Shown here: piece after piece, positions 13,073 through 50,686 of the stretch | Position numbering within the stretch: the first letter of the stretch is position 1 | How the letters are laid out: every line of letters starts with the position of its first letter | Source: Ruegeria conchae | GTDB lineage: Bacteria; Pseudomonadota; Alphaproteobacteria; Rhodobacterales; Rhodobacteraceae | Length of the DNA stretch: 64,000 bases | Direction of reading: 5' to 3' | Assembly (NCBI RefSeq): GCF_000192475.1 | Contig: NZ_AEYW01000006.1 | Span: 682,001 to 746,000 of the forward strand | Translations under genes and position numbers: made by a program | The notes under the pieces: model-generated | The model's input: the letters and a program-made list of their open reading frames with translations, nothing else | Told to the model about the DNA's origin: nothing | Database searches by the model: none

Positions 13073-13105
13073 AAAAGAAAACGCATGAGCGATGAGGTGC
13101 GAGCG

Positions 13106-13804
13106 ATGCTGACCAAGAAGCAATTGGATTTGCTGGAATTCATCCACAAACGCGTGCAAGCGGACGGTGTTCCGCCCAGTTTTGATGAAATGAAGGCTGC
13201 GTTGGACCTGCGTTCCAAATCCGGGATCCATCGATTGATCACGGCGCTGGAAGAACGTGGCTTTATCCGCCGCCTTGCTCACCGGGCACGCGCCATTGAA
13301 ATCGTCAAGCTGCCCGAAAGCCTTGGTGGAGAGCCGACGGCAGGCTTCAAACCCCGCGTGATTGAAGGTGACCGGCCCGAAGGGACCCGCCCAGCGAATT
13401 TCGAACCCGTCACCGTTGATGCGATGGAACTGCCCGTCATGGGGCGGATCGCGGCGGGTGTCCCGATCGAAGCGATAAGCCATGTTTCACACCGCGTGGC
13501 AGTGCCGGGCTCGATGATTTCAGGCAGCGGTGAACATTACGCGCTTGAAGTGCGGGGCGACTCGATGATCGACGCCGGTATCAATGATGGCGATGTTGTC
13601 GTGATCCGTGAAACCACGGCAGCAGATAACGGGGATATCGTAGTGGCGCTGGTTGAAGATCAAGAAGCCACGTTAAAGCGTTTTTTCCGTCGCGGTCAGG
13701 CCATTGCACTTGAAGCAGCAAACCCGGCTTATGAGACGCGTGTGTTGCCCGAGGATAAGGTGAAAGTACAGGGTCGGTTGGTTGGTTTGATCCGTAGCTA
13801 CTGA
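13106..13804 (+). CDS. lexA: LexA repressor (SOS regulator)
   Basis: Represses DNA-damage genes and self-cleaves when RecA filaments form. The 232-residue protein begins [14 protein letters not shown], has a winged-helix DNA-binding domain to about residue 65, the Ala-Gly cleavage site at about 117-118 (RIAAGVP), and the Ser/Lys dyad at about S153 (GDSMIDAG) and K191. I chose the ATG at 13106, which has GAGG eight bases upstream. An ATG at 13085 lies only about six bases after the predicted transcription start. The 3' end overlaps the convergent comEC stop by seven bases. Confidence 0.95.
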
Positions 13805-30516: not shown

Positions 30517-30591
30517 TCCGGCGTAGCTCAGCGGTAGAGCAGTTGACTGTTAATCAATTGGTCGTAGGTTCGATCCCTACCGCCGGAGCCA
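30517..30591 (+). tRNA. tRNA-Asn (GTT), copy 2
   Basis: Base-for-base identical to the copy at 29201-29275; the identity starts two bases upstream (30515) and ends exactly at the CCA. The flanks differ completely. The 3' end lies 19 bases before the stop of the DmdB-like gene on the opposite strand. Confidence 0.97.
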
Positions 30592-38454: not shown

Positions 38455-41190
38455 GTGAGCGATACGCCAGAAATACCTGAAAACATGGATGAAACACCGC
38501 CCGAGCGCCCCGTCTATGACGGCCCGACGGTATCCATCGAATCCGAGATGCGCACGTCCTATCTGGACTATGCCATGTCGGTCATCGTGTCGCGCGCCAT
38601 TCCCGATCTGCGCGATGGTTTGAAACCAGTGCACCGCCGCATTCTGTATGCAATGCACGAAACCGGGAACACGCACGAAAAGGCCTACCGCAAATCGGCC
38701 CGCCCGGTCGGCGACGTGATGGGTAAGTACCACCCGCATGGTGATAGTGCGATCTATGACGCGCTGGTGCGGATGGCACAGGATTTCTCGATGTCCCTGC
38801 CGCTACTGGATGGTCAGGGCAACTTTGGCTCGATGGACGGCGATAACCCGGCGGCCATGCGTTATACCGAAGTTCGGATGGACAAGCCTGCCGCGTCCCT
38901 GCTGGCCGATATTGAAAAAGAGACGGTCGATTTTCAGGACAACTATGACGGCAAAGACAAAGAGCCGACCGTCCTGCCCGCCCGTTTCCCAAATATGCTC
39001 GTCAACGGTGCCGGCGGTATCGCTGTGGGTATGGCAACGAACATCCCTCCGCACAATCTGGGTGAAGTGGTTGATGCAACTCTGGCGCTGATCGATGACC
39101 CGGACTTGACCTCGGAACAGTTGATCGAATACGTCCCCGGCCCAGATTTCCCGACCGGCGGCGTAATGCTGGGCCGGTCCGGCGCGCGCAAAGCTTATCT
39201 GGAGGGCCGTGGCAGCGTCATCATCCGTTCCAAGACCCGTGTCGAGGAGCTTCGTAAGGACCGCTACGCCATCGTCGTCGATGAGATTCCCTATCAGGTG
39301 AACAAAGCCGCTATGATCGAAAAGATTGCCGAGGCCGTGCGTGAGAAGCGGATCGAAGGTGTGTCCCATGTGCAGGACGAATCCGACCGCAATGGTGTGC
39401 GCGTCGTCGTCGAATTGAAGCGCGATGCAACGCCCGAAGTGGTGCTGAACCAGCTCTATCGTTTCTCACCTATGCAAACTTCGTTCGGCTGCAACATGCT
39501 GGCCCTGAATGGCGGTCGCCCCGAACAGCTGACCTTGCGCCGCTTCCTAACATCCTTCATCGATTTTCGCGAGGATGTGGTTGCCCGTCGTACTGCGTAC
39601 GATCTGCGCAAAGCACGCGAACGCAGCCATATTCTCTGTGGTCTGGCGGTCGCTGTTTCCAATGTGGACGAAGTCGTCGCCACGATCCGCTCGTCTGCAG
39701 ACGCAGCGCAAGCACGTGAAAAGCTGATGACCCGCCGTTGGCCGGCGGCTGATATCGAAGGCTATCTGCGTCTTATCGACGATCCTCTGTCCAAGATGAA
39801 CGACGACGGCACCTATAACCTGACCGAAGTTCAGGCCCGCGCCATCCTCGAACTGCGTCTGCAACGTCTGACCCAACTGGGTGTCAAAGAGGTCACAGAC
39901 GAGCTGGAAGAACTCGCCGCCAAGATCAAGGAATACTTGGATATACTATCTTCGCGCGAACGCATCATGTCGATCATCGGCGATGAGCTTCGCAGCGTAC
40001 GAGACCAGTTTGCCGTTCCACGTCGCACCGAGATCGTCGACTGGTCCGGCGACATGGAAGACGAAGACCTGATCGAGCGTGAGGATATGGTCGTGACCGT
40101 CACCTCGGGCGGATACATCAAGCGCACTCCGCTGGCTGATTTCCGCGCCCAGAAGCGCGGCGGCAAAGGTCTGTCTGGTATGCAGACCAAAGAAGAAGAC
40201 GTGGTCACCACGCTCTTCGTGGCAAATACCCACACGCAGCTATTGTTCTTCACAACGGATGGCATGGTCTACAAGCTTAAGACCTGGCGCCTGCCGCAAT
40301 CGGGGCGGACTGGCAAAGGCAAAGCCATCGTCAACATCCTGCCGATTCCAACCGGGGTTTCTATTGCTGCAATTATGCCGGTGGATGTGCCGGATGAAGA
40401 ATGGGAAAACCTGCAGATCATCTTCGCCACCAGTGCAGGCACCGTGCGGCGCAACCGTTTGTCAGATTTCACCAACGTCAAGCGCAACGGCAAGATCGCT
40501 ATGAAGTTCGAAGAGGATCACGCCGACACCAAGTTGATCAACGCGCGTATCTGTTCCGAAGATGATGACGTCATGCTGGTCACTAAATCTGGCCGCGCAA
40601 TCCGCTTCTCAACAACAGATGTACGGGTGTTCAACAGCCGGTCGTCTGTTGGTGTACGCGGTGTACGTCTGACCGGCGATGATGAGGTGGTTTCGATGTC
40701 GGTCATCCGCCACTTCAACGCCACCTCGGATGAACGGGCCGCTTACCTTAAAATGCGCCGCCTTATGGCCGGTGTCACCGATGAATCCGAGACGGAAGAA
40801 GATGAAGGTAACGCCGACAGTGTGCTGCCACAGGAACGTTATGCCGAGATGTCGGCTGCCGAGAACCTGATCCTGACCATTACGGCAGGGGGCGCGGGCA
40901 AGCTGAGCTCAAGCCACGATTACCCGGTTCGCGGACGCGGCGGTATGGGCGTGGCAGCGATGGACAAGGCCATGCGCGGCGGTAAATTGGTGGCATCCTT
41001 CCCCGTTGATATTGACGACCAGATCATGCTGGCCACCTCAAAGGGTCAGTCGATCCGGGTGCCGGTTGATGGGATCTCTTTCCGCTCCCGCAGCGCGGGC
41101 GGTGTGAAAGTCTTCAATACGGGCAAGGGCGAAGAAGTCGTCAGTGTTGCCTGGATTGCAGACCAGGGTGATGAAGAAGCCGAAGAATGA
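38455..41190 (+). CDS. gyrA: DNA gyrase subunit A
   Basis: Breaks and rejoins DNA during supercoiling by gyrase. The 911-residue protein begins at a GTG. The quinolone-resistance region reads [17 protein letters not shown], with Ser and Asp as in sensitive enzymes. The catalytic Tyr lies in [12 protein letters not shown] GyrA box QKRGGKG distinguishes it from topoisomerase IV ParC. An acidic insertion ([10 protein letters not shown]) lies in the C-terminal wrapping domain. The 286 bases after its stop hold no gene I can support. Confidence 0.97.
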
Positions 41191-41476
41191 AGGATCGAGA
41201 ACGAAATCGGGTGAGTTAAGCTCGGTTTCTTTGGTCTAAACCTTCCAATTACAGCTCTGCGAACTTTTCAGTCATTCAGTCGAAACGTGTGAAGGCAGAA
41301 GAATGGATCAAGTCGTAAGATGGGCAATTTGCTCGCAGTCACAATGGGTGTTGCAAGAGCGATCCGGGCTGAACCTGTTCGGGTACACGTAACCATCGAA
41401 CTGAAGTTTGTCACACGAACCGCAAATAGTGGCCTCAGCAAAGCGCAGAGTTTTAGCGCCACTTTCAATCCAAATA

Positions 41477-42367
41477 TTACTCGACCGGTGACCAATTCGT
41501 GTCTGGATCATAAGCAGAAATTTCAGATGCAATACTGAGTGTCTCCGGGCCAAAATCTGCCTCGTAGACTATGCCGTTTTCGCCTACCAGAAAGGAATGA
41601 ATACCAGTTTCTCCGTAGTCTGCCGGTATTGCCAGCAAGGCATGTCCTGCAACAAAGTGATCCCCGACGAAATAGGGGTAGGCACCCCCTGGAGCGTTAG
41701 GGCCCTGCTCTTGCAGGATTGTGTAATAATAGCCAAGAAACGGTTCGGCCTCATAGTCAACCTGACCGTCACTCCACCCCGAAGCTGCGGCGCGGGCAAG
41801 CGCTGCACCGACAAAGCTGTCTTTTCCAGGCCAGAAGAGACCGTTCTGCTCTTCCGGATCGGAAATGATCGTCTGAGCGAATTCCATAACGCCATTCCCG
41901 TTATGGTCCACAAGCCGGAAAGCTGCCTGCAGGTCAACATAGGCCTCAAGCAATTCGATCACTTCCAACTCATTCAAGCCTATTTCACGAGCTGAAAGTT
42001 CCTCGATCCCAGCCTCCAGGTCAAAGCGCCAACCGTCATCTCTACGCAGAATTGGGATAGGAAAAGGCCAACCGTCTTCACCTAGAAGAAGTACAACGCC
42101 ATCGTCCTCAGGCCGGAAACGATACCCCTCGGCATACATGCCAAGCACTTCCTGCCTTCTTTCTTGATCTTCCGTCGGATCACCCGTTCCAACCAGATCC
42201 TCGGCTTCAGGCCCGAAAATTTCGATCAGCTTGCTCTGATCATTAGCCTTCAACGCATCAACAAAAGCATCCAGTGCGGTTTGCGGCGTATCAAATCTGG
42301 CTCCTTCAGAGAGGGCCGGGCTTGTGGTCGCGGCAAGCAACAAAATTGAAAATACTGATCTACGCAT
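41477..42367 (-). CDS. DUF2950 family exported protein
   Basis: The 296-residue protein has a signal peptide (MRRSVFSILLLAATTSPALS) and matches DUF2950: FDTPQTALDAFVDALKAND at the N-terminus, GYYYTILQEQGPNAPGG, and DYGETGIHSFLVGENGIVY. Function is unknown. The start at 42367 has GGAG eight bases upstream, inside the end of the DUF3300 gene, with one base between genes. The pair forms an operon. Confidence 0.85.
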   Translation of the reverse strand: MRRSVFSILLLAATTSPALSEGARFDTPQTALDAFVDALKANDQSKLIEIFGPEAEDLVGTGDPTEDQERRQEVLGMYAEGYRFRPEDDGVVLLLGEDGWPFPIPILRRDDGWRFDLEAGIEELSAREIGLNELEVIELLEAYVDLQAAFRLVDHNGNGVMEFAQTIISDPEEQNGLFWPGKDSFVGAALARAAASGWSDGQVDYEAEPFLGYYYTILQEQGPNAPGGAYPYFVGDHFVAGHALLAIPADYGETGIHSFLVGENGIVYEADFGPETLSIASEISAYDPDTNWSPVE

Positions 42368-42368
42368 T

Positions 42369-43670
42369 TTACCGTCTCCGCTTGCCTTTAGCGGCGTGTC
42401 CACGCTTGGACGCGCTTTGAGTTCTGCTGCCGGACGCCTTTTTCTTCATCGCTTGCCCTTTGGATGCCGCGGGCTTGCGCTGCGTCGATGCGGCTTTCTT
42501 CGCTTGCGGCTTCTTGGCGGTCTGCGGTCTTTGTGCGACTGGCTTTTTCGCTGAATCTGGACGTTTGGTGCGATCAATGGCTTGTTGCTTTGCGGCAGCC
42601 TTGTCCCGATCAGCGTTGTTCCGGTTCGCCAAGGCACCGCCTGCTACAGCCCCTGCACCCGCACCGACCGCGGCTGCAGCCGCCCCGCGGTCACGGCTAA
42701 TATCTGCAGCACCAGATTCTCGGCTCAACTTTGCACGCAGCTCATCCGTGCGACCGTCAGGACGGTTAACCGGCAAGTCGCTACGGCCACCTTCGGGTCT
42801 TTTGTGGTCCGCTATTTTGTTCCGGGCCTCCTGTTGCCGGTCAGGATCGGGGTTCCATCCGATATCCGTTCGGTCACCTAAATCTATATCATTGCCGATA
42901 TTGACGTTGCCATCCACGTCTATGTCGATGTCTGGATTTCTATAAATCGGACCGCCGCCCCAGCCACCGCAATTTCGGCACCCCCAGTAGTCGTTCCAAT
43001 CATCGTCGTCGTCGAAAATTTCGTCGATCAGGGCAACAGCGCCAAAAGTCAGTAGTGCTGCGCCCACAACATCCCCGGTTGACGGGCCAGTATAAATCGT
43101 CTCGGGATTGTATTGTGGGACGTATACCGTCTCGGGTTCTGTCGGCGTAATTACTATGGTGTCGTCCTCAGACACTTCGACAGTTTGCTCGGGCCCTGAA
43201 ACAAGAGCGCCACTGTCAATTGCCTGATCCCGCATGACCTGCACCGCATCCATCACATCGTCGGACTGGGCCAACATGGCAGTGCCAACTGTCTCGGTCC
43301 AGTCGATATGGGTGGCCATCTGACCAACAACTTGGGGGAACGCCGTTGCCAACACACTGACAGAAGGATCCCATCCCATTGCATCGATTTCCGGTTCCAG
43401 TTCAACAGGGTCGCGGTCGGCGTTATCGAGCAAATACCGTTCAGCCTTAACAATTTCCAATGGCTGGGTTGCCGCGACAAATATCTGTATGAGTAACGTG
43501 TCGGGATAAAGAGCAACCGGGGCGACCAATGTCTGCAACTCAGCGTCAGTTAGCAGACTGGACGAGGTCGCCGAGGTATCATCTTTTGCCGCTACATCTT
43601 CAGACGACTCTTGCGTTAACGCTGAAGTAGATACGCAAATACCGAATGCAATTAATAGAAACCTAAACAT
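42369..43670 (-). CDS. DUF3300 family exported protein with basic tail
   Basis: The 433-residue protein has a signal peptide (MFRFLLIAFGICVSTSAL). The DUF3300 domain occupies about residues 40-230, with LVAPVALYPDTLLIQIFVA, MGWDPSVSVLATAFP and YVPQYNPETIY. An Asp/Gly-rich segment follows (DDDDWNDYWG). The C-terminal 100 residues are very rich in Lys, Arg and Ala, like a histone tail. A basic exported tail could bind polyanions such as LPS or DNA. It sits first in a two-gene operon with DUF2950, a pairing I recall from other proteobacteria. Confidence 0.85.
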   Translation of the reverse strand: MFRFLLIAFGICVSTSALTQESSEDVAAKDDTSATSSSLLTDAELQTLVAPVALYPDTLLIQIFVAATQPLEIVKAERYLLDNADRDPVELEPEIDAMGWDPSVSVLATAFPQVVGQMATHIDWTETVGTAMLAQSDDVMDAVQVMRDQAIDSGALVSGPEQTVEVSEDDTIVITPTEPETVYVPQYNPETIYTGPSTGDVVGAALLTFGAVALIDEIFDDDDDWNDYWGCRNCGGWGGGPIYRNPDIDIDVDGNVNIGNDIDLGDRTDIGWNPDPDRQQEARNKIADHKRPEGGRSDLPVNRPDGRTDELRAKLSRESGAADISRDRGAAAAAVGAGAGAVAGGALANRNNADRDKAAAKQQAIDRTKRPDSAKKPVAQRPQTAKKPQAKKAASTQRKPAASKGQAMKKKASGSRTQSASKRGHAAKGKRRR

Positions 43671-43811
43671 ATTGCGATCCTTCGATTTCTTGAAGGATCA
43701 CCTAAGACTGCGATTCTGGCAACCGATCAGTCAATAAAACGGTTGTGGGATAATAATCGACACCCAATCAAGATTGAGCGAGTGTCCGCTTTGGGCTCGA
43801 AGCGGATGTTG

Positions 43812-44015
43812 CTATTAAGCAAAATCCTGAATTCGTTAACTTTCATACGCCTTATAGAGGTTAATATTCGGCCCTCGCTCAAAGCCCATACAATGCCCCA
43901 AACTTGTTCTCAAGATAGGTCAACAACGCCTTCGGCCCGGGCTCGACACCACTTGCCCTCTGGATGATTTCGCGTGGCGCATAAAGGCCGCCAAATTGCT
44001 GGACGTTCTCGCGCA
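43812..44015. repeat. Left copy of 204-bp direct repeat
   Basis: Aligns without gaps to 49150-49353 at a constant offset of 5,338 bases. The right 137 bases (carboxypeptidase coding part) differ at only four positions. The left 67 bases (downstream flank) are much less similar, roughly three quarters identical by eye. The two copies flank the kinase-cyclase-regulator cluster. Confidence 0.85.
43879..44015 (-). pseudogene. Truncated 3' fragment of an M32 carboxypeptidase gene
   Basis: Reverse-strand reading gives LRENVQQFGGLYAPRE and ends in ENKFGALYGL plus stop, matching the last 45 residues of the intact carboxypeptidase at 49217-50686. There is no start and no upstream catalytic part. The fragment has no internal stop and only four base changes from the intact gene, so it is recent, or kept similar by gene conversion. 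Confidence 0.85.
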
Positions 44016-44218
44016 AAACTATGGCCTCTTGAGCGTCATAGCAGAAATATAGGATGGCTCAGGAACAGTATTGAAATGAGAACTCGCTGCCCGAACCATG
44101 AGAACCTAACCGTACGCAACGAGCACATTCAAAAATGCAACCGTCGATAAATCTTGCAAGATTAGGGCCGTACCTGATTTAGTGACCGAAAATTGGGCGG
44201 CTTTTGGGGGAGAAGCGT

Positions 44219-46702
44219 GTGCCGGGCATGCAAGAACAGGATTACGAAGGCGAACTACGCATTTACGAAGCACTGAATGTGGTGTCTACGACACCCGTTT
44301 TTGCGCTTTCGTTTTTGACGGCGTTTGCTGTTCAGATCGTGCAGATTGGGCCTTCCCATCTGACGATCCCTGCGATCGGATCGCTTGCGGTACTGGCGAT
44401 TGTGAACCTGTTGGGCATGCAGAGTTACTATAAACTGCGTACTAAACCCAGGCCTAGATCGATATCCCATCGGCGGCTGAAAGTCATCCTGGTCACCTCG
44501 ATGGTTCTGGGGGCTGGTTGGGGTAGTTTCAACTTGTTCATGATGCCATACTTGGTTCCCTACGAGCAGATGATGCTGTATTTGTTTGCATTTGTCGGCG
44601 CACTGGGCGGGTCGACGACATTTTCGATGAGAGTGTCCTTTGGTTTCTCAAGCCAAATTCTGTTTTTTACTTGGATTGCCATGCTGCTGTGGGGTCCATT
44701 AGCGTGGTATATCAACACCTTCATCGTTCTTGGCGTGTTTTTGGCAATCGTAAAGCTTACGTTTCTGACACGATCAACTGCTATCGATAGCATCAAGTTG
44801 AGCCTGGCCAACGCAAGGGCCTTGAACGATCAACTTAAAGCCGAAAACCAGATACGTGAACTGGCCCGCATTCCGGAAGAGAACCCGAACCCGGTGTTGC
44901 GTATCACCGATCAGGGCGAACTGACTTACGCCAATAAGGCAAGCGCTCCATTAATCGAAGCGCTGCAGCTAAAAGTTGGTGACCGAGTGGGAACGGGTTG
45001 GCGTAAACGTGTTGCCAAGGGTTTGCAGGATGGTCAACGGGCAGATTTCCAGTATAAGGCTGGTGGTCAGACCTATTCTCTTTTGCTGTGGCCGGTTCCG
45101 GAAGGAGGATACGCGAATATCTACGGTCGGGATATTACGCGGCAAAAACGTGTGGAGAGCGAGTTGCGGGTGGCCCGCGATATCGCTGAGACCGCCAATA
45201 AGACCAAAAGCACTTTCCTTGCCAATATGAGCCATGAACTGCGCACGCCGCTGAATGCGATCATTGGATATAGTGAACTGATGCTGGAAGAAGCCATCGA
45301 CCAGAAGGATGACGCAAACCTGAGCGACTTGAAGAAGATCCAATCTGCCGGGAAACACCTGCTTGCGTTGATCAATGATGTATTGGACCTCTCCAAAATC
45401 GAAGCCGGAAAGATGGAGTTCGAACTGGAAACTTTCGACGTTTTCCAGATGATCAAAGATGTAAGCGCGACAGTGCAGCCGTTGGCTGAGCAGAACAACA
45501 ACACGCTGGAAATTGAGTGCCCTGATGATATCGGCGAGATGGTCTGTGACTTGACCAAGGTGCGGCAGGCCCTGCTGAACTTGTTGTCCAATGCTTGTAA
45601 GTTCACAGAACAGGAAATGATCACGTTATCGGTTGTAAAATCGAACGACACAGATCAACTGGAATTTGCGGTCACCGATCACGGCATCGGCATGTCGCTA
45701 GAGCAGGTCGAGAGGATATTCGATGCGTTTACGCAGGCAGATTCCTCAACAACGCGTAACTACGGTGGTACCGGATTGGGGCTGTCTATCACAAAGGCCT
45801 TCTGCGAACAGTTGGGCGGCAACATTCACTGCGAAAGTGCGCTTGGCGAAGGTTCGACCTTCACAATTCGCCTACCGCGCATCTGTCGCGACCCGTCAAC
45901 GGGCGTGATTAGTCTGGCTGATCAGTCGGGAAATGATTTGAACAATGACCCGAATGCGCCGCTGGTTCTGTTGGTGGATGACGATCCGACCGTGCATGAT
46001 CTTCTTGGTCGACGACTACTTCGTGAGGGATATCGCGTCCTCGCATCGGCCAACGGCGATGAGGCATTAGAACTGGCTCGAACAACCCGTCCTGATGCTA
46101 TCACGCTCGATGTCTTCATGCCCGAAATCGATGGCTGGGCTGTTTTGTCCAAGCTCAAGGACGATCCCGAACTTGCGGATATTCCTGTCATCATGTTGAC
46201 TTTCGCAGAGGATCGCAAAAGAGGTTTGTCGCTGGGAGCCAGTGAATATTTGGGCAAGCCAATTGACACTACCGAGCTTCTGAGTGTCCTCAAAGAGCAC
46301 TGCCCAACTCTGCCAACGCCACGCGTTCTGGTCGTCGAGGACGAGGCTGCAACGCGTGAGCTAATCTGTCGCGTTCTCGAAAAAGAAGGCTGGCAGATTG
46401 ACGAGGCGATCAATGGACTGGATGCCCTTCAACGCCTCTCTCAGTTCGTGCCGGACGTGATTTTACTTGATCTCATGATGCCCGAGATGGACGGTTTTGA
46501 GTTCTTGGCGGGGATAAGAAAGAACCCGGAGTGGAAGAATATTCCCGTCATCATCGTGACCGCCAAATCCCTGTCCAGCGAGGACCGCGCGCAACTGAAT
46601 GGCTCGTTCCAGACGCTGGTCCGCAAAGATGGGGATGAGATTGAAATCATTCTGAACCAGTTGAACGAAATCCTTTCGGCTTCTCGATCTGAAGACGTAT
46701 AG
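44219..46702 (+). CDS. Membrane hybrid histidine kinase with two receiver domains
   Basis: About 827 residues. The N-terminus has roughly six membrane helices (about 25-185). A PAS-like domain (about 215-310), HisKA with NMSHELRTPLNAIIGYSELM (His near 340) and an ATPase domain with N-box NLLSNACKF and GTGLGLSI follow. Two receivers end the protein: the first has VDDDPTVHD, phosphoacceptor in TLDVFMPEIDG and KPI; the second has VEDEAATRE and LLDLMMPEMDG but a less typical VRKDG lysine region. The GTG at 44219 has GGGGGAG six bases upstream; TTG 44204 and ATG 44228 are alternatives. It is followed after three bases by the cyclase gene, so both are one operon. Confidence 0.88.
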   Translation: MPGMQEQDYEGELRIYEALNVVSTTPVFALSFLTAFAVQIVQIGPSHLTIPAIGSLAVLAIVNLLGMQSYYKLRTKPRPRSISHRRLKVILVTSMVLGAGWGSFNLFMMPYLVPYEQMMLYLFAFVGALGGSTTFSMRVSFGFSSQILFFTWIAMLLWGPLAWYINTFIVLGVFLAIVKLTFLTRSTAIDSIKLSLANARALNDQLKAENQIRELARIPEENPNPVLRITDQGELTYANKASAPLIEALQLKVGDRVGTGWRKRVAKGLQDGQRADFQYKAGGQTYSLLLWPVPEGGYANIYGRDITRQKRVESELRVARDIAETANKTKSTFLANMSHELRTPLNAIIGYSELMLEEAIDQKDDANLSDLKKIQSAGKHLLALINDVLDLSKIEAGKMEFELETFDVFQMIKDVSATVQPLAEQNNNTLEIECPDDIGEMVCDLTKVRQALLNLLSNACKFTEQEMITLSVVKSNDTDQLEFAVTDHGIGMSLEQVERIFDAFTQADSSTTRNYGGTGLGLSITKAFCEQLGGNIHCESALGEGSTFTIRLPRICRDPSTGVISLADQSGNDLNNDPNAPLVLLVDDDPTVHDLLGRRLLREGYRVLASANGDEALELARTTRPDAITLDVFMPEIDGWAVLSKLKDDPELADIPVIMLTFAEDRKRGLSLGASEYLGKPIDTTELLSVLKEHCPTLPTPRVLVVEDEAATRELICRVLEKEGWQIDEAINGLDALQRLSQFVPDVILLDLMMPEMDGFEFLAGIRKNPEWKNIPVIIVTAKSLSSEDRAQLNGSFQTLVRKDGDEIEIILNQLNEILSASRSEDV

Positions 46703-46705
46703 GCT

Positions 46706-48310
46706 GTGAGTAGCGCCCCGAATACCCAACCCGAGCAGGCACAGGCAATGTGGCTGGCAAATTTACGCCAGAACCTGATTTCCCCGGTCAGTGCGGTAGT
46801 CGGGCTATGTGAGTTTCTCGAAAGTGAGGCTGAACGCCTTACTCTGAAGGAAGCCGCATCAGACCTGAACCGAATATCTCAGGCTGCAACCGAACTAAGC
46901 GTGTTTGTGGACCAGCTTCTGCATCCCCGAATGGCCTTGAAGCTTACGGTAAGCGGTGACGAAGGAGTGAAAAGGCTTCGTCACGATTTGCGAACGCCGA
47001 TGAATGCGATCAAGGGCTACAGCGAAATGCTGCTTGAGGATCTGGAGGATCTAAACGCAGGACATCTGGAGTTGGACCTGCGCGGATTGCTGAAGCATAC
47101 GGATTCTCTATTGCAAGAAATTGATGTGCTCGCATCGTTGTCCGACAACCAGTCCGGCGATGGCTTCAAAATACCCGAGGCATCGCAGGACGCAGCTGAA
47201 ATGTTCGCGAATCTGGCTCAAAGCATACGCTCGATTGATCCGGTTGCGGAGACTGCTTCGCTAACCGGAACCATCCTAGTCGTAGATGATGTCGAAGCTA
47301 ACCGTACGCTGCTTGCCCGGCGGCTCGAACGGGATGGCCATCAAGTCTGGACCGCCGACGGAGGATATTCGGCTCTGGAAAAGCTATCTCAACACGCGTT
47401 CGATCTGGTCCTGCTTGATCTTATGATGCCGGATCTCAACGGTTATGATGTTTTGAAGCGATTGAAAGAAAACGATGACTGGCGCGACATCCCGGTCATC
47501 ATGATTTCCGCGTTCGATGAGATCGAAAGCGTCGCGCGTTGCGTTGAGATCGGAGCAGAAGATTACCTCCCTAAACCGTTCAACCCAATCTTGTTGCAAG
47601 CTCGGATCAACGCCGCGCTTGAGAAAGGACAGTGGCGGGAGCGAGAGCGCCTCTATCTCTTTCAGATGGAGGCAGAGAAGCAAAAGTACAAAGACCTGTT
47701 GCATAGTATTCTGCCGCAAAAAATCGTGACACGGTTGAACGACGGAGAGGCCACGATTGCCGACCGTCATGACGATGTGACTGTCCTGTTTTCGGACATG
47801 GTTGGCTTTACGGAGATGTCGGCGAAATTGTCACCCGCGCAAGTGGTTGACTACCTTAATCGGGTTTTTTCGGGCTTCGACAAGGCGGCTTCGGAACTTG
47901 GTGTGGAAAAGATCAAGACAATCGGAGATGCCTACATGGCCGCGGCCGGAGTACCCGACCACCGGAATGACCACGCTGAAGTGATGGTTGAACTGGCTTG
48001 TCGGATGTTATCTCAGGTCGAAGCGCTGAACCACGAGCTGGACTACCCTATGCATCTTAGAATCGGCGTCCACAGTGGGCCCGTAGTCGCCGGAATAATC
48101 GGGTCACACCGTTTTCTCTACGATGTTTGGGGGGATACAGTGAATTTCGCCAGCCGTCTTGAAACAACGGGTGCGCCAGGCCGCATTCAAGTCTCAGAGG
48201 AGACTGCAAGGCGGGTTACGCATTGCTTTGACCTAACTGATCCGATGGATGTGAGAATTAAGGGCAAAGGCCAGGCAAAAACATATTTCATCACTGGACG
48301 GAAATCTTAG
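46706..48310 (+). CDS. HisKA-REC-class III adenylate cyclase fusion
   Basis: The 534-residue soluble protein has four modules. A HisKA-like helical hairpin lacking the His (NLISPVSAVVGL) is at about 20-70. A second HisKA hairpin with RHDLRTPMNAIKGYSEML (H93) lacks any ATPase domain. The receiver domain (about 188-305) has acceptor D238 in LLDLMMPDLNG and KPF. The class III cyclase domain (about 350-525) has metal ligands D364 (VLFSDMVGF) and D408 (KTIGDAY). K404 plus D473 (DVWGDTVN) point to ATP rather than GTP, and N480/R484 complete the site. It probably makes cAMP under phosphorelay control by the adjacent kinase. The GTG start lies three bases after that gene. Confidence 0.88.
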   Translation: MSSAPNTQPEQAQAMWLANLRQNLISPVSAVVGLCEFLESEAERLTLKEAASDLNRISQAATELSVFVDQLLHPRMALKLTVSGDEGVKRLRHDLRTPMNAIKGYSEMLLEDLEDLNAGHLELDLRGLLKHTDSLLQEIDVLASLSDNQSGDGFKIPEASQDAAEMFANLAQSIRSIDPVAETASLTGTILVVDDVEANRTLLARRLERDGHQVWTADGGYSALEKLSQHAFDLVLLDLMMPDLNGYDVLKRLKENDDWRDIPVIMISAFDEIESVARCVEIGAEDYLPKPFNPILLQARINAALEKGQWRERERLYLFQMEAEKQKYKDLLHSILPQKIVTRLNDGEATIADRHDDVTVLFSDMVGFTEMSAKLSPAQVVDYLNRVFSGFDKAASELGVEKIKTIGDAYMAAAGVPDHRNDHAEVMVELACRMLSQVEALNHELDYPMHLRIGVHSGPVVAGIIGSHRFLYDVWGDTVNFASRLETTGAPGRIQVSEETARRVTHCFDLTDPMDVRIKGKGQAKTYFITGRKS

Positions 48311-48810
48311 TAGTCGGATCTACCTCCAGAGGCTGACAGCAGTTTTTCCATTATCTCAAGCAAACGGTTAAGTTCGACAGGTTTGGTATCAAAGTCATCG
48401 CAACCTGCCTCCAGCGCCTTTTCCCGGTCGCTGGCCATTGCGTGTGCCGTCAGCGCAACCACCGGGATTGAGGCCGTCTCGGGTGCTGCCTTGATGCGCC
48501 GTGTCGCCTCCCATCCATCAATTTCAGGCAGGCTCATATCCATCAAAACAATGTCGGGATTTGCTTCACCAGCCATGGACACGCCTTCCAACCCGTCCTT
48601 CGCAACGATAACTTGGAAGCCTTTACGCGCCAACCGACGCGACAACATATCGCTGTTCATTTCGTTGTCTTCCACCAACAGAACTTTAGCCAAATTTCCC
48701 CCTTTACGCATGCGCGCCATTTGACTGCCCACGAGACAGAGTGTTTCCGGATCCATTTTCAAAATGTCGAACATACCACTAGATTGCGCAAGTCGTTTCG
48801 GTTGAAGCAT
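48307..48810 (-). CDS. Single-domain response regulator (CheY-like)
   Basis: Receiver domain of about 125 residues with acidic pocket VEDNEMNSD, acceptor Asp in IVLMDMSLPEIDG, Thr in VVALTAHA and Lys in DTKPVE. There is no output domain. The N-terminus is uncertain: 48810 gives 167 residues, but a later ATG or a TTG after AGGGGG (near residue 40) would give a bare receiver. It is convergent with the cyclase gene, overlapping its stop by four bases. It may shuttle phosphate from the neighbouring hybrid kinase. Confidence 0.82.
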   Translation of the reverse strand: MLQPKRLAQSSGMFDILKMDPETLCLVGSQMARMRKGGNLAKVLLVEDNEMNSDMLSRRLARKGFQVIVAKDGLEGVSMAGEANPDIVLMDMSLPEIDGWEATRRIKAAPETASIPVVALTAHAMASDREKALEAGCDDFDTKPVELNRLLEIMEKLLSASGGRSDY

Positions 48811-49216
48811 TCTTTCATCAATTCAGCTTCACGCAATGAACAAATTAGTGTCTTCAGATAATGTCTTCTTTTAGTCCACCCAACCCGCTACGAATTTCGC
48901 TTTCCCACCCTTGCTGTTTTTTGCTGCGGTCGAGTTGCGACCAAAGCAGTCGTTCATTGTCAGATTGCCAATGGCGGTAGTGTCCGCGTCTCGTTAATTG
49001 CCTGGGGAATTCTCGCTGCGCCGGGCCCGAATGGTGGCTCCTTACGCCACATCGCCGTACTCAAGATAATGCACACCCAGCAAAATCTGCGCTGTGTGCG
49101 TTTGCAGCGAGAAAATCGAATTCACAGGATGGGCCTGAGGCGGGCGTTTCTTTTGAGCAAGATCCTGAACTCAAAAACTTGCGTACACCTTCAGGAAGTT
49201 AATAATCGGCCATCGC
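48811..49216. other. Intergenic region, no gene seen
   Basis: This 406-base gap lies between the response regulator start and the carboxypeptidase stop. Its left part should carry the regulator promoter. Its right end (from 49150) is the flank of the right copy of the direct repeat. I found no supported gene or terminator in it. Confidence 0.6.
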
Positions 49217-49353
49217 TCAAAGCCCATACAATGCCCCAAACTTGTTCTCAAGATAGGTCAACAACGCCTCCGGCCCGGGCTCGACACCACTTGCCCTCTG
49301 GATGTTTTCGCGCGGCGCATGAAGGCCGCCAAATTGCTGGACGTTCTCGCGCA
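49150..49353. repeat. Right copy of 204-bp direct repeat (3' end of carboxypeptidase)
   Basis: Spans 67 bases of downstream flank and the last 137 coding bases of the carboxypeptidase gene. The gapless partner is at 43812-44015, in the same orientation. Confidence 0.85.
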
Positions 49354-50686
49354 GCCATCCGGTGGCGCCCGAGGAATCGCCCGCAGCCAATTGCGAATCC
49401 AAATCGGGTACGGCCTTGCGCAAAGCCTGATTCAGACATCCTGCGTAGACATTCCCCAACGAGTAGGTCGGGAAGTAGCCAAACAGCCCAACAGACCAGT
49501 GCACATCCTGCAGGCACCCATTCGAAGGCTTGTCGACCGCATATCCAAAATCTGCGGCGAAACGATCATTCCACGCGGCTTCAAGGTCGCTGACTTGCAG
49601 ATCACCTGCCATCAGCGCACGCTCTAGATCGAACCGCAGCATGATATGCAGGTTGTACTGCACTTCGTCCGCTTCGGTCCGGATGTATCCACTGTGTACT
49701 CGGTTAACGGTGCCATAGAAGGCATCGGCGTCGGCGATGCCAAAATCGCCAAAGGCTTCTTTCATTTGATCGAAAAGCCAGCCGGTGAAGGCGCGGGACC
49801 GGCCCAGTTGGTTTTCATAAATCCGGCTTTGGCTTTCATGAACTCCCATGGATACACCGCGCCCTAAAGGCGTCAGCAAATAATCCGGGTCGATCCCCTG
49901 TTCATAAGCCGCATGTCCCACTTCGTGGATCGTGGAATAGAAGCAATTGAACGGGTCCGTTTCGCTGGTTCTGGTGGTGATGCGTACATCCAGCCCGCTG
50001 CCAGAACTGAACGGGTGTACAGCTTTGTCCACGCGGCCATTATTTAGGTCATAGCCAAAGGCGACGGCCAGCTTTTGCGACAGGCGCATTTGGATCAACT
50101 CGTCAAATCTACCGGTCAGAGCCGCAGGCTCGGGCCGATCTAGGACAGCTGCGCGCAAAGTAACCAGACGTGGGCGCATCTGGTCGAATATCTCGGCAAT
50201 CTGCGCACCCGTCGTGTAGGGCTCGTAATCTTCGACCATTGCGTCGTAGATATCACCGCCTTGAGCGAGCGCGGCACCTTCCTCGCGCTTAAGTGCAACA
50301 ACCTCTTCCAGAACGGGTAGAAAAGCAGCGACATCCTCATTCGCGCGGGCCTGCGCCCATTTTCCCTGCGCCTCGGACGTCACGCGTGCAATTGCAGTAG
50401 CCAGATCCGATGGAACCTTCACCGCCCGATCATATTCGCGTCGAATTTCCCGCAGCTGAGCCTTGTCCGCTTCGCTAGTTGCATATGCGCTCTCCAGCCA
50501 TTCTGCCACACGTGGGTCTGAGCGGCGCGCGTGAAGCACGGCTTCGATCGCAGCCATCTCTTCGGCCCGTTGCGGAGCTGCGCCGCGCGGCATTACCGTT
50601 TCCTGATCCCATCCCAGACGTCCGGCGATCTGGCCAAGGGCCGAAGTTTGGCGCTGATAGGCCATCAGGTCGTTGAAAGCTGTCAT
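49217..50686 (-). CDS. M32-family (thermostable) metallocarboxypeptidase
   Basis: Zinc carboxypeptidase of 489 residues that removes C-terminal amino acids from peptides in the cytoplasm. It has the HEXXH motif in STIHEVGHAAYEQGI and the later GVHESQSRIYENQLGRS with a third metal ligand. The start at 50686 (MTAFNDLMAYQ) fits the family; the reading frame stays open for another 107 codons upstream, but this overlaps ctaA. It starts just after the ctaA stop (five bases), so the two may be co-transcribed. Its 3' end is duplicated at 43812-44015. Confidence 0.93.
   Translation of the reverse strand: MTAFNDLMAYQRQTSALGQIAGRLGWDQETVMPRGAAPQRAEEMAAIEAVLHARRSDPRVAEWLESAYATSEADKAQLREIRREYDRAVKVPSDLATAIARVTSEAQGKWAQARANEDVAAFLPVLEEVVALKREEGAALAQGGDIYDAMVEDYEPYTTGAQIAEIFDQMRPRLVTLRAAVLDRPEPAALTGRFDELIQMRLSQKLAVAFGYDLNNGRVDKAVHPFSSGSGLDVRITTRTSETDPFNCFYSTIHEVGHAAYEQGIDPDYLLTPLGRGVSMGVHESQSRIYENQLGRSRAFTGWLFDQMKEAFGDFGIADADAFYGTVNRVHSGYIRTEADEVQYNLHIMLRFDLERALMAGDLQVSDLEAAWNDRFAADFGYAVDKPSNGCLQDVHWSVGLFGYFPTYSLGNVYAGCLNQALRKAVPDLDSQLAAGDSSGATGWLRENVQQFGGLHAPRENIQRASGVEPGPEALLTYLENKFGALYGL

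Follow-up and report, generated by a model that had tools for sequence, protein, structure and literature searches.

A predicted cAMP-signalling cassette that has moved between marine Ruegeria species, and the duplicated gene end beside it in Ruegeria conchae

In a 64,000-nucleotide stretch of the Ruegeria conchae genome (contig NZ_AEYW01000006.1, positions 682,001 to 746,000; hereafter the window), genes for a hybrid histidine kinase, a HisKA–receiver–adenylate cyclase protein and a single-domain receiver lie between two copies of the end of one carboxypeptidase gene. Certain integrative elements use the 3′ end of a gene as their insertion site and rebuild the gene as they enter. The locus raises two questions: do the three genes form a mobile unit, and how did the end of the neighbouring gene come to be present twice?

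Distribution and insertion points of the cassette

Searching 54 Ruegeria genomes for the cyclase gene (E 1e-180) returned 14 copies in 12 of them, 11 besides that of the window, with two genomes holding two copies each. One further copy was found in a Leisingera (L073), and the named carriers of close cassette relatives are Ruegeria and this one Leisingera. The kinase and receiver genes adjoin the cyclase gene in the 14 loci mapped, and with the window, L046 and L063 to L075 there are 15 cassette loci in all. These occupy 13 different insertion points; only L067 and L071 share a site, and L064 lies on a 5.3-kb contig with too little flank. A family search with about one genome per genus matched the cyclase in 1 of 394 genomes, the window's own (E 1e-140, best three candidates per genome), which hints at rarity of the cyclase without proving it.

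We compared the divergence of the cassette with that of core genes across seven genomes (21 pairs, which are not independent). Spearman correlations with gyrA identity were −0.18 for the kinase and −0.17 for the cyclase, and those with carboxypeptidase identity were −0.30 and −0.27, whereas gyrA and carboxypeptidase correlated with each other at 0.62 over the same pairs. Genomes G020 and G034, for example, share 92.7% identity in gyrA but only 68.9% in the cyclase. The patchy distribution, the many insertion points and the incongruence with core genes therefore indicate a cassette that travels horizontally. It is a horizontally transferred gene cassette, or genomic islet, that has moved between marine Ruegeria species with many landing places and no obvious mobility gene; the initial annotation had called it a transferable cAMP and phosphorelay module. 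Farther out from the cassette, two stretches of 0.6 to 0.8 kb (66–70% identity) are common to L068 and L072, on opposite sides of it. Together with a segment common to L066 and L073 (described below), they suggest that a few integration regions may be favoured.

At the window site itself, we mapped 11 relatives, five of them close by carboxypeptidase identity and six of them cassette carriers. In all 11 the interval between gyrA and the carboxypeptidase gene was free of the cassette and of DUF2950 and DUF3300 genes, with a gap of 0.5 to 2.2 kb between tblastn matches compared to 8.0 kb in the window. No severed carboxypeptidase end without the cassette was seen in these relatives, all of which are other species. 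Among the loci tried, a clean empty site was obtained for the window only. The right-flank gene of L069 was present in 41 of 41 genomes, with the left flank not continuing across in the four regions compared; the left-flank gene of L065 occurred in 12 of 41, where the pieces compared lacked an adjoining right flank; the flank gene of L072 was matched in none of 41; and the right flank of L066 gave only pieces of at most 138 nt in the other 19 genomes searched.

The window site also holds a second acquisition, module 1, which consists of a DUF2950 and a DUF3300 gene and is 94.5% identical over 2562 positions to L173:6399-8958, a different locus in G020; the gyrA genes of the two genomes are 86.2% identical. 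Judged by this identity, the pair is recently shared with another Ruegeria species at another locus, and because it was acquired here the site is one that takes up foreign DNA. Its homology ends two bases ahead of the left repeat, and for that reason the carboxypeptidase-derived left copy can be taken to begin at about 43811, in agreement with the boundary first assigned to it. The site is thus a patchwork of two neighbouring foreign modules separated by the severed carboxypeptidase end. Of 41 genus genomes, 16 carry DUF2950.

The duplicated carboxypeptidase end

The direct repeats described in the initial annotation are ungapped over 204 nt and 90% identical, and they are the only two matches at E <= 0.001 in the 4.49-Mb genome, with no third. 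A longer span (43792-44015 and 49130-49353, 224 nt, 88%) is recovered as one family, and local alignment of one flank against the other at the window scored 159, the best of 30 shuffles reaching 14.5. Alignment upheld the assignment of the right copy to the intact carboxypeptidase gene and of the left copy to a severed one. The right repeat takes in the final 137 nt of the gene, which encodes an M32 carboxypeptidase, together with the 67 nt that follow, and the left repeat contains 45 codons and a stop as in the right copy, breaking off at 44015/44016. The gene itself was matched in 37 of 37 genus genomes searched.

The 20 mismatches between the copies are unevenly placed by direct count: 4 fall among the 137 coding positions and 16 within the 67-nt tail (Fisher p 7e-6), or 97% and 76% identity, respectively. 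One recent local duplication is therefore an unlikely source of the repeat. We also compared both copies with the carboxypeptidase ends and tails of 29 relatives. All 29 share the base of the severed copy at coding site 32 and that of the intact copy at site 83; at site 48 the relatives have T (21) or C (8) and never the A of the intact gene, and site 40 is mixed. Judging from these differences, the two copies resemble ends from separate lineages of one gene, the resident lineage and another that came with the cassette. No clear recombination breakpoint emerged when identity was profiled along the carboxypeptidase gene.

The arrival of the cassette here probably copied the tail end of the carboxypeptidase gene. 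We hold with about even confidence that a horizontally travelling cassette lacking its own mobility genes came in through host recombination, for which the carboxypeptidase tail supplied one homologous arm. Module 1 would have come first, directly downstream of the carboxypeptidase gene. The incoming DNA would have carried the cassette next to the carboxypeptidase 3′ end of a related lineage, and would have recombined by homology within the gene and by illegitimate joining at the other end, either through homology-facilitated illegitimate recombination or through a single crossover of a circle. The carboxypeptidase gene would thereby stay intact with the incoming tail, and the resident tail would be left behind as the severed left copy.

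An insertion of this kind, with one homologous arm and the old 3′ end shifted back, is proposed for the type VI secretion system (T6SS) arrays of Vibrio cholerae (PMC5361080), and by analogy it would produce the geometry of the window without an integrase. As in those effector–immunity arrays, a module would have been gained with one homologous anchor and the old 3′ end displaced behind it, with no integrase known. The Ruegeria case differs in having a housekeeping peptidase as anchor and signalling genes as cargo, the intact peptidase gene lying outside that cargo; in both cases the recombination mechanism is a proposal (PMC5361080).

Several points weigh against one-armed insertion. The repeat copies differ at just four coding positions, three of which could be polarised, and neither tail is matched by the tails of the 29 relatives, which therefore do not show which one is native. 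The searches turned up no donor in which the cassette adjoins a carboxypeptidase gene, the gene being absent from the examined flanks of the other 14 loci. An integrase may possibly have acted in trans, and the signal flow and cAMP output of the cassette are predictions.

If a recombinase acting in trans or since lost had integrated the cassette site-specifically at the end of the carboxypeptidase gene, the replacement 3′ end carried by the element would be an attP and the two repeats attL and attR. As in integrative elements that insert at gene ends, the window has an intact gene on one side and the severed original on the other, with tails that differ, and the derived bases of the intact gene at sites 32 and 48 are those expected of a once-unselected attP copy. 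We nevertheless regard this explanation as unlikely. We compared up to 1.5 kb on each side of the window cassette and of 12 other loci (all except L064 and L046) for direct and inverted repeats against 30 shuffles, and the window gave the sole clear result. None of the 12 loci, which lie at different insertion points, showed a flanking repeat clearly above shuffles or the same att arrangement; the closest margins were a direct repeat at L065 (14.0, best shuffle 13.5) and ties in L071, L072 and L073. A lower-sensitivity self-comparison that also covered L064 and L046 found, in G034, only repeats inside cassette genes. No transposon-type inverted repeat rose above shuffles in the window or the 12 loci, with one tie, in a test that short target duplications would escape.

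As first noted, an integrase is not seen here: Pfam scans of six proteins, from the interval and from either side of it, matched none. No tyrosine or serine recombinase was found among 33 proteins flanking copies other than L064 and L046, about a third of which matched no Pfam family; the 33 include two DDE transposases, beside L067 and L071. Unlike integrative elements of the 3′-end type, the cassette thus has no integrase seen, no att-like repeat at its other copies and many insertion points, and the earlier suggestion that 3′-end integration is the cassette's own mechanism is not supported. The flanking repeat is not a property of the cassette; a single recombination event at this locus, with the repeat as its by-product, is the better reading. 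A tRNA at the window border was considered and rejected, the nearest one ending at 30591, 13 kb away; known RNAs were likewise rejected as border features, tRNAs being the only Rfam gathering matches in the window and seven other loci. Four of the loci L063 to L075 have one tRNA each. The cassettes of L066 and L073, in different genomes, lie near the same tRNA-Arg region, where L066:3-1232 and L073:15235-16511 have a 1.0-kb segment in common at 71.9%; the two loci are oppositely oriented and differ in content.

Local rearrangement, in which a cassette already downstream was duplicated in tandem together with the gene end and one cassette was later deleted, needs neither donor nor recombinase and agrees with the lack of a third repeat copy in the genome, but we consider it quite improbable given that tails at 76% and coding parts at 97% are unexpected from one duplication (P 0.005 even with the tail drifting twice as fast), although later gene conversion could rescue it.

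A dispersed intergenic repeat at module borders

The right edge of module 1 lies in a dispersed repeat, an intergenic imperfect palindrome of about 90 bp found in Ruegeria (Table 1). Its core pattern has 17 copies in the window genome (G000), 28 in G001 and between 2 and 7 in each of four other genus genomes searched, with no occurrence in three genomes of other genera and none of the reversed pattern used as a control. The repeat has no Rfam gathering match, and single-strand folding of eight copies gave z below −2 in two and between −1.2 and 0.9 in the other six. An origin of the RAYT type was rejected, as G000 has no Y1 transposase match despite its 17 copies; among the six genus genomes, a single match was found in each of two others.

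If modules moved by recombination between such repeats, the carboxypeptidase duplication would be a later accident. Three pairwise homologies border in repeats (L066 and L069 at both ends, the window and L173 at both ends, and L069 and L156 at the right end), but at the left end of L066/L069 the model matches in L069 only, the right copy of L173 is weak (E 0.023), and the window copies are non-significant at 41235 (left end, E 0.75) and on the right side (E 0.17). Moreover, a repeat lies within 500 bp of the approximate gene borders in 4 of 16 loci (the window, L066, L069 and L061; E 0.05), a frequency for which no excess over ordinary intergenic DNA was shown. We find this origin of the locus very doubtful, and treat the position of some module borders inside the repeat as a lead only. 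The broader idea, that the repeat is a general joint for exchange of gene modules between species with no integrase beside it, the cassette and the DUF2950–DUF3300 pair being cargoes and the sensor swapped en route, seems to us rather unlikely.

Cassette genes and predicted signalling

A domain scan bore out the gene content first assigned to the interval between the repeats (Table 1). The cyclase domain of the window protein matches PF00211 (E 2.7e-58), and among solved structures its closest catalytic relatives in sequence are class III adenylate cyclases. The motifs FSD, EKIKTIGD and D(V/I)WGDTVN..SR, which we take to supply both metal aspartates, the adenine-type Lys/Asp and the transition-state Asn/Arg, are kept in all 15 Ruegeria and Leisingera copies, so that by sequence the cassette cyclases have the residues of a class III catalytic domain. 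Phospho-acceptors are kept as well, namely HELRTP and two receiver Asp in the kinase and HDLRTP and LLDL in the cyclase protein (15 copies; L074 reads N over the DHp). Changes in the cyclase gene between the window and L063 number 83, 39 and 242 at codon positions 1, 2 and 3, and this concentration at third positions, together with the retained active-site motifs, indicates that the cassette genes are selected for function.

Copies of the kinase differ in their input part. The N-terminus of the window kinase is hydrophobic, with hydropathy peaks within residues 31-71 and 152-189, and this type, without a Pfam family match, is found in three copies (the window, L063 and L064). The other 12 kinases, all with a PAS_7 sensor and four of them (L065, L072, L073 and L074) with a GAF domain besides, align with the hydrophobic type only from about residue 210. 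By this comparison, the transmitting core appears constant between copies while the input part is exchanged.

From its domains and conserved residues, the cassette is predicted to convert a stimulus into the messenger cAMP. The kinase would sense a signal through its exchangeable N-terminus and phosphorylate itself; its receivers would then relay the phosphate to the DHp histidine of the cyclase protein, from which it would reach the receiver of that same protein. This receiver would switch the class III adenylate cyclase and so control cAMP synthesis. The separate receiver would serve as a second output or a phosphate sink.

Table 1 Features of the window and of related loci discussed in the text
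Feature	Position	Strand	Evidence or remark
gyrA, conserved far side of the insertion site	38455..41190	+	Carboxypeptidase neighbour in 11/11 mapped relatives
Acquired module 1: DUF2950 (41477-42403) and DUF3300 (42369-43670) genes	41251..43810	−	Match to L173
Dispersed repeat, first part (model positions 3-32 of 98), right edge of module 1	43781..43810	+	nhmmer E 2.2e-6
Left repeat, severed carboxypeptidase 3′ end	43812..44015 (coding part 43879-44015)	−	Plus 67-nt downstream tail
Cassette extent common to window and L064	44088..48839	+	78.3% identity over 4767 positions
Hybrid histidine kinase, 832 aa, HisKA-HATPase-REC-REC	44204..46702	+	Pfam domains: HisKA, HATPase_c, two receivers
DHp (HisKA)–receiver–class III adenylate cyclase, 534 aa	46706..48310	+	Pfam domains and conserved motifs
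Single-domain response regulator, 167 aa	48307..48810	−	Pfam domain and conserved motifs
Possible degenerate dispersed-repeat copy right of cassette	48936..48982	.	nhmmer E 0.17 and 0.24, non-significant alone
Right repeat, 3′ end of intact carboxypeptidase plus 67-nt tail	49150..49353	−	Repeat search and alignment
M32 (Taq-type) carboxypeptidase, intact	49217..50686	−	PF02074 E 1.2e-159; stop at 49217
Dispersed-repeat copies elsewhere	L066:13074-13161; L069:7819-7883, 13075-13152; L156:16191-16268		

The same three families occur on Sinorhizobium meliloti pSymB (L162:2847-7560), with identities of 58% in the kinase core, 65% in the receiver and 46% in the cyclase; the kinase is unannotated in that record, where matches to it are spread over more than one reading frame. 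A more distant version, at 41–43% identity in kinase and cyclase, is present at L061:7936-11547 (G033) and L062:5555-9130 (G018). These three loci have kinase, receiver and cyclase in that order on one strand, whereas the window has kinase and cyclase followed by an opposed receiver, and Bradyrhizobium loci L078 to L080 have the receiver ahead of kinase and cyclase, again unlike the window. Cyclase relatives below 60% identity were matched in 80 plasmid records, 67 of them from Sinorhizobium. An unrelated second class III cyclase-like gene (a TPR, GFA or hydrolase fusion) stands beside the cassette at four loci (L063:4870-6426, where the cyclase match is below the Pfam cut-off, L066:6649-7797, L067:5998-7899 and L073:13312-14961); L071 shares the site of L067. 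Literature titles and abstract openings held no description of the cassette or of the dispersed repeat, which is not proof of absence.

Circuits built on second messengers are commonly regarded as permanent equipment of a lineage. In Ruegeria, an entire unit predicted to lead from sensor to cAMP moves from species to species within a compact package of five kilobases, and is present twice in some genomes. If the dispersed repeat were the joint, this would account for the shuffling of small gene modules among marine Roseobacters in the absence of classical mobile elements, and would make predictions about breakpoints that can be checked.

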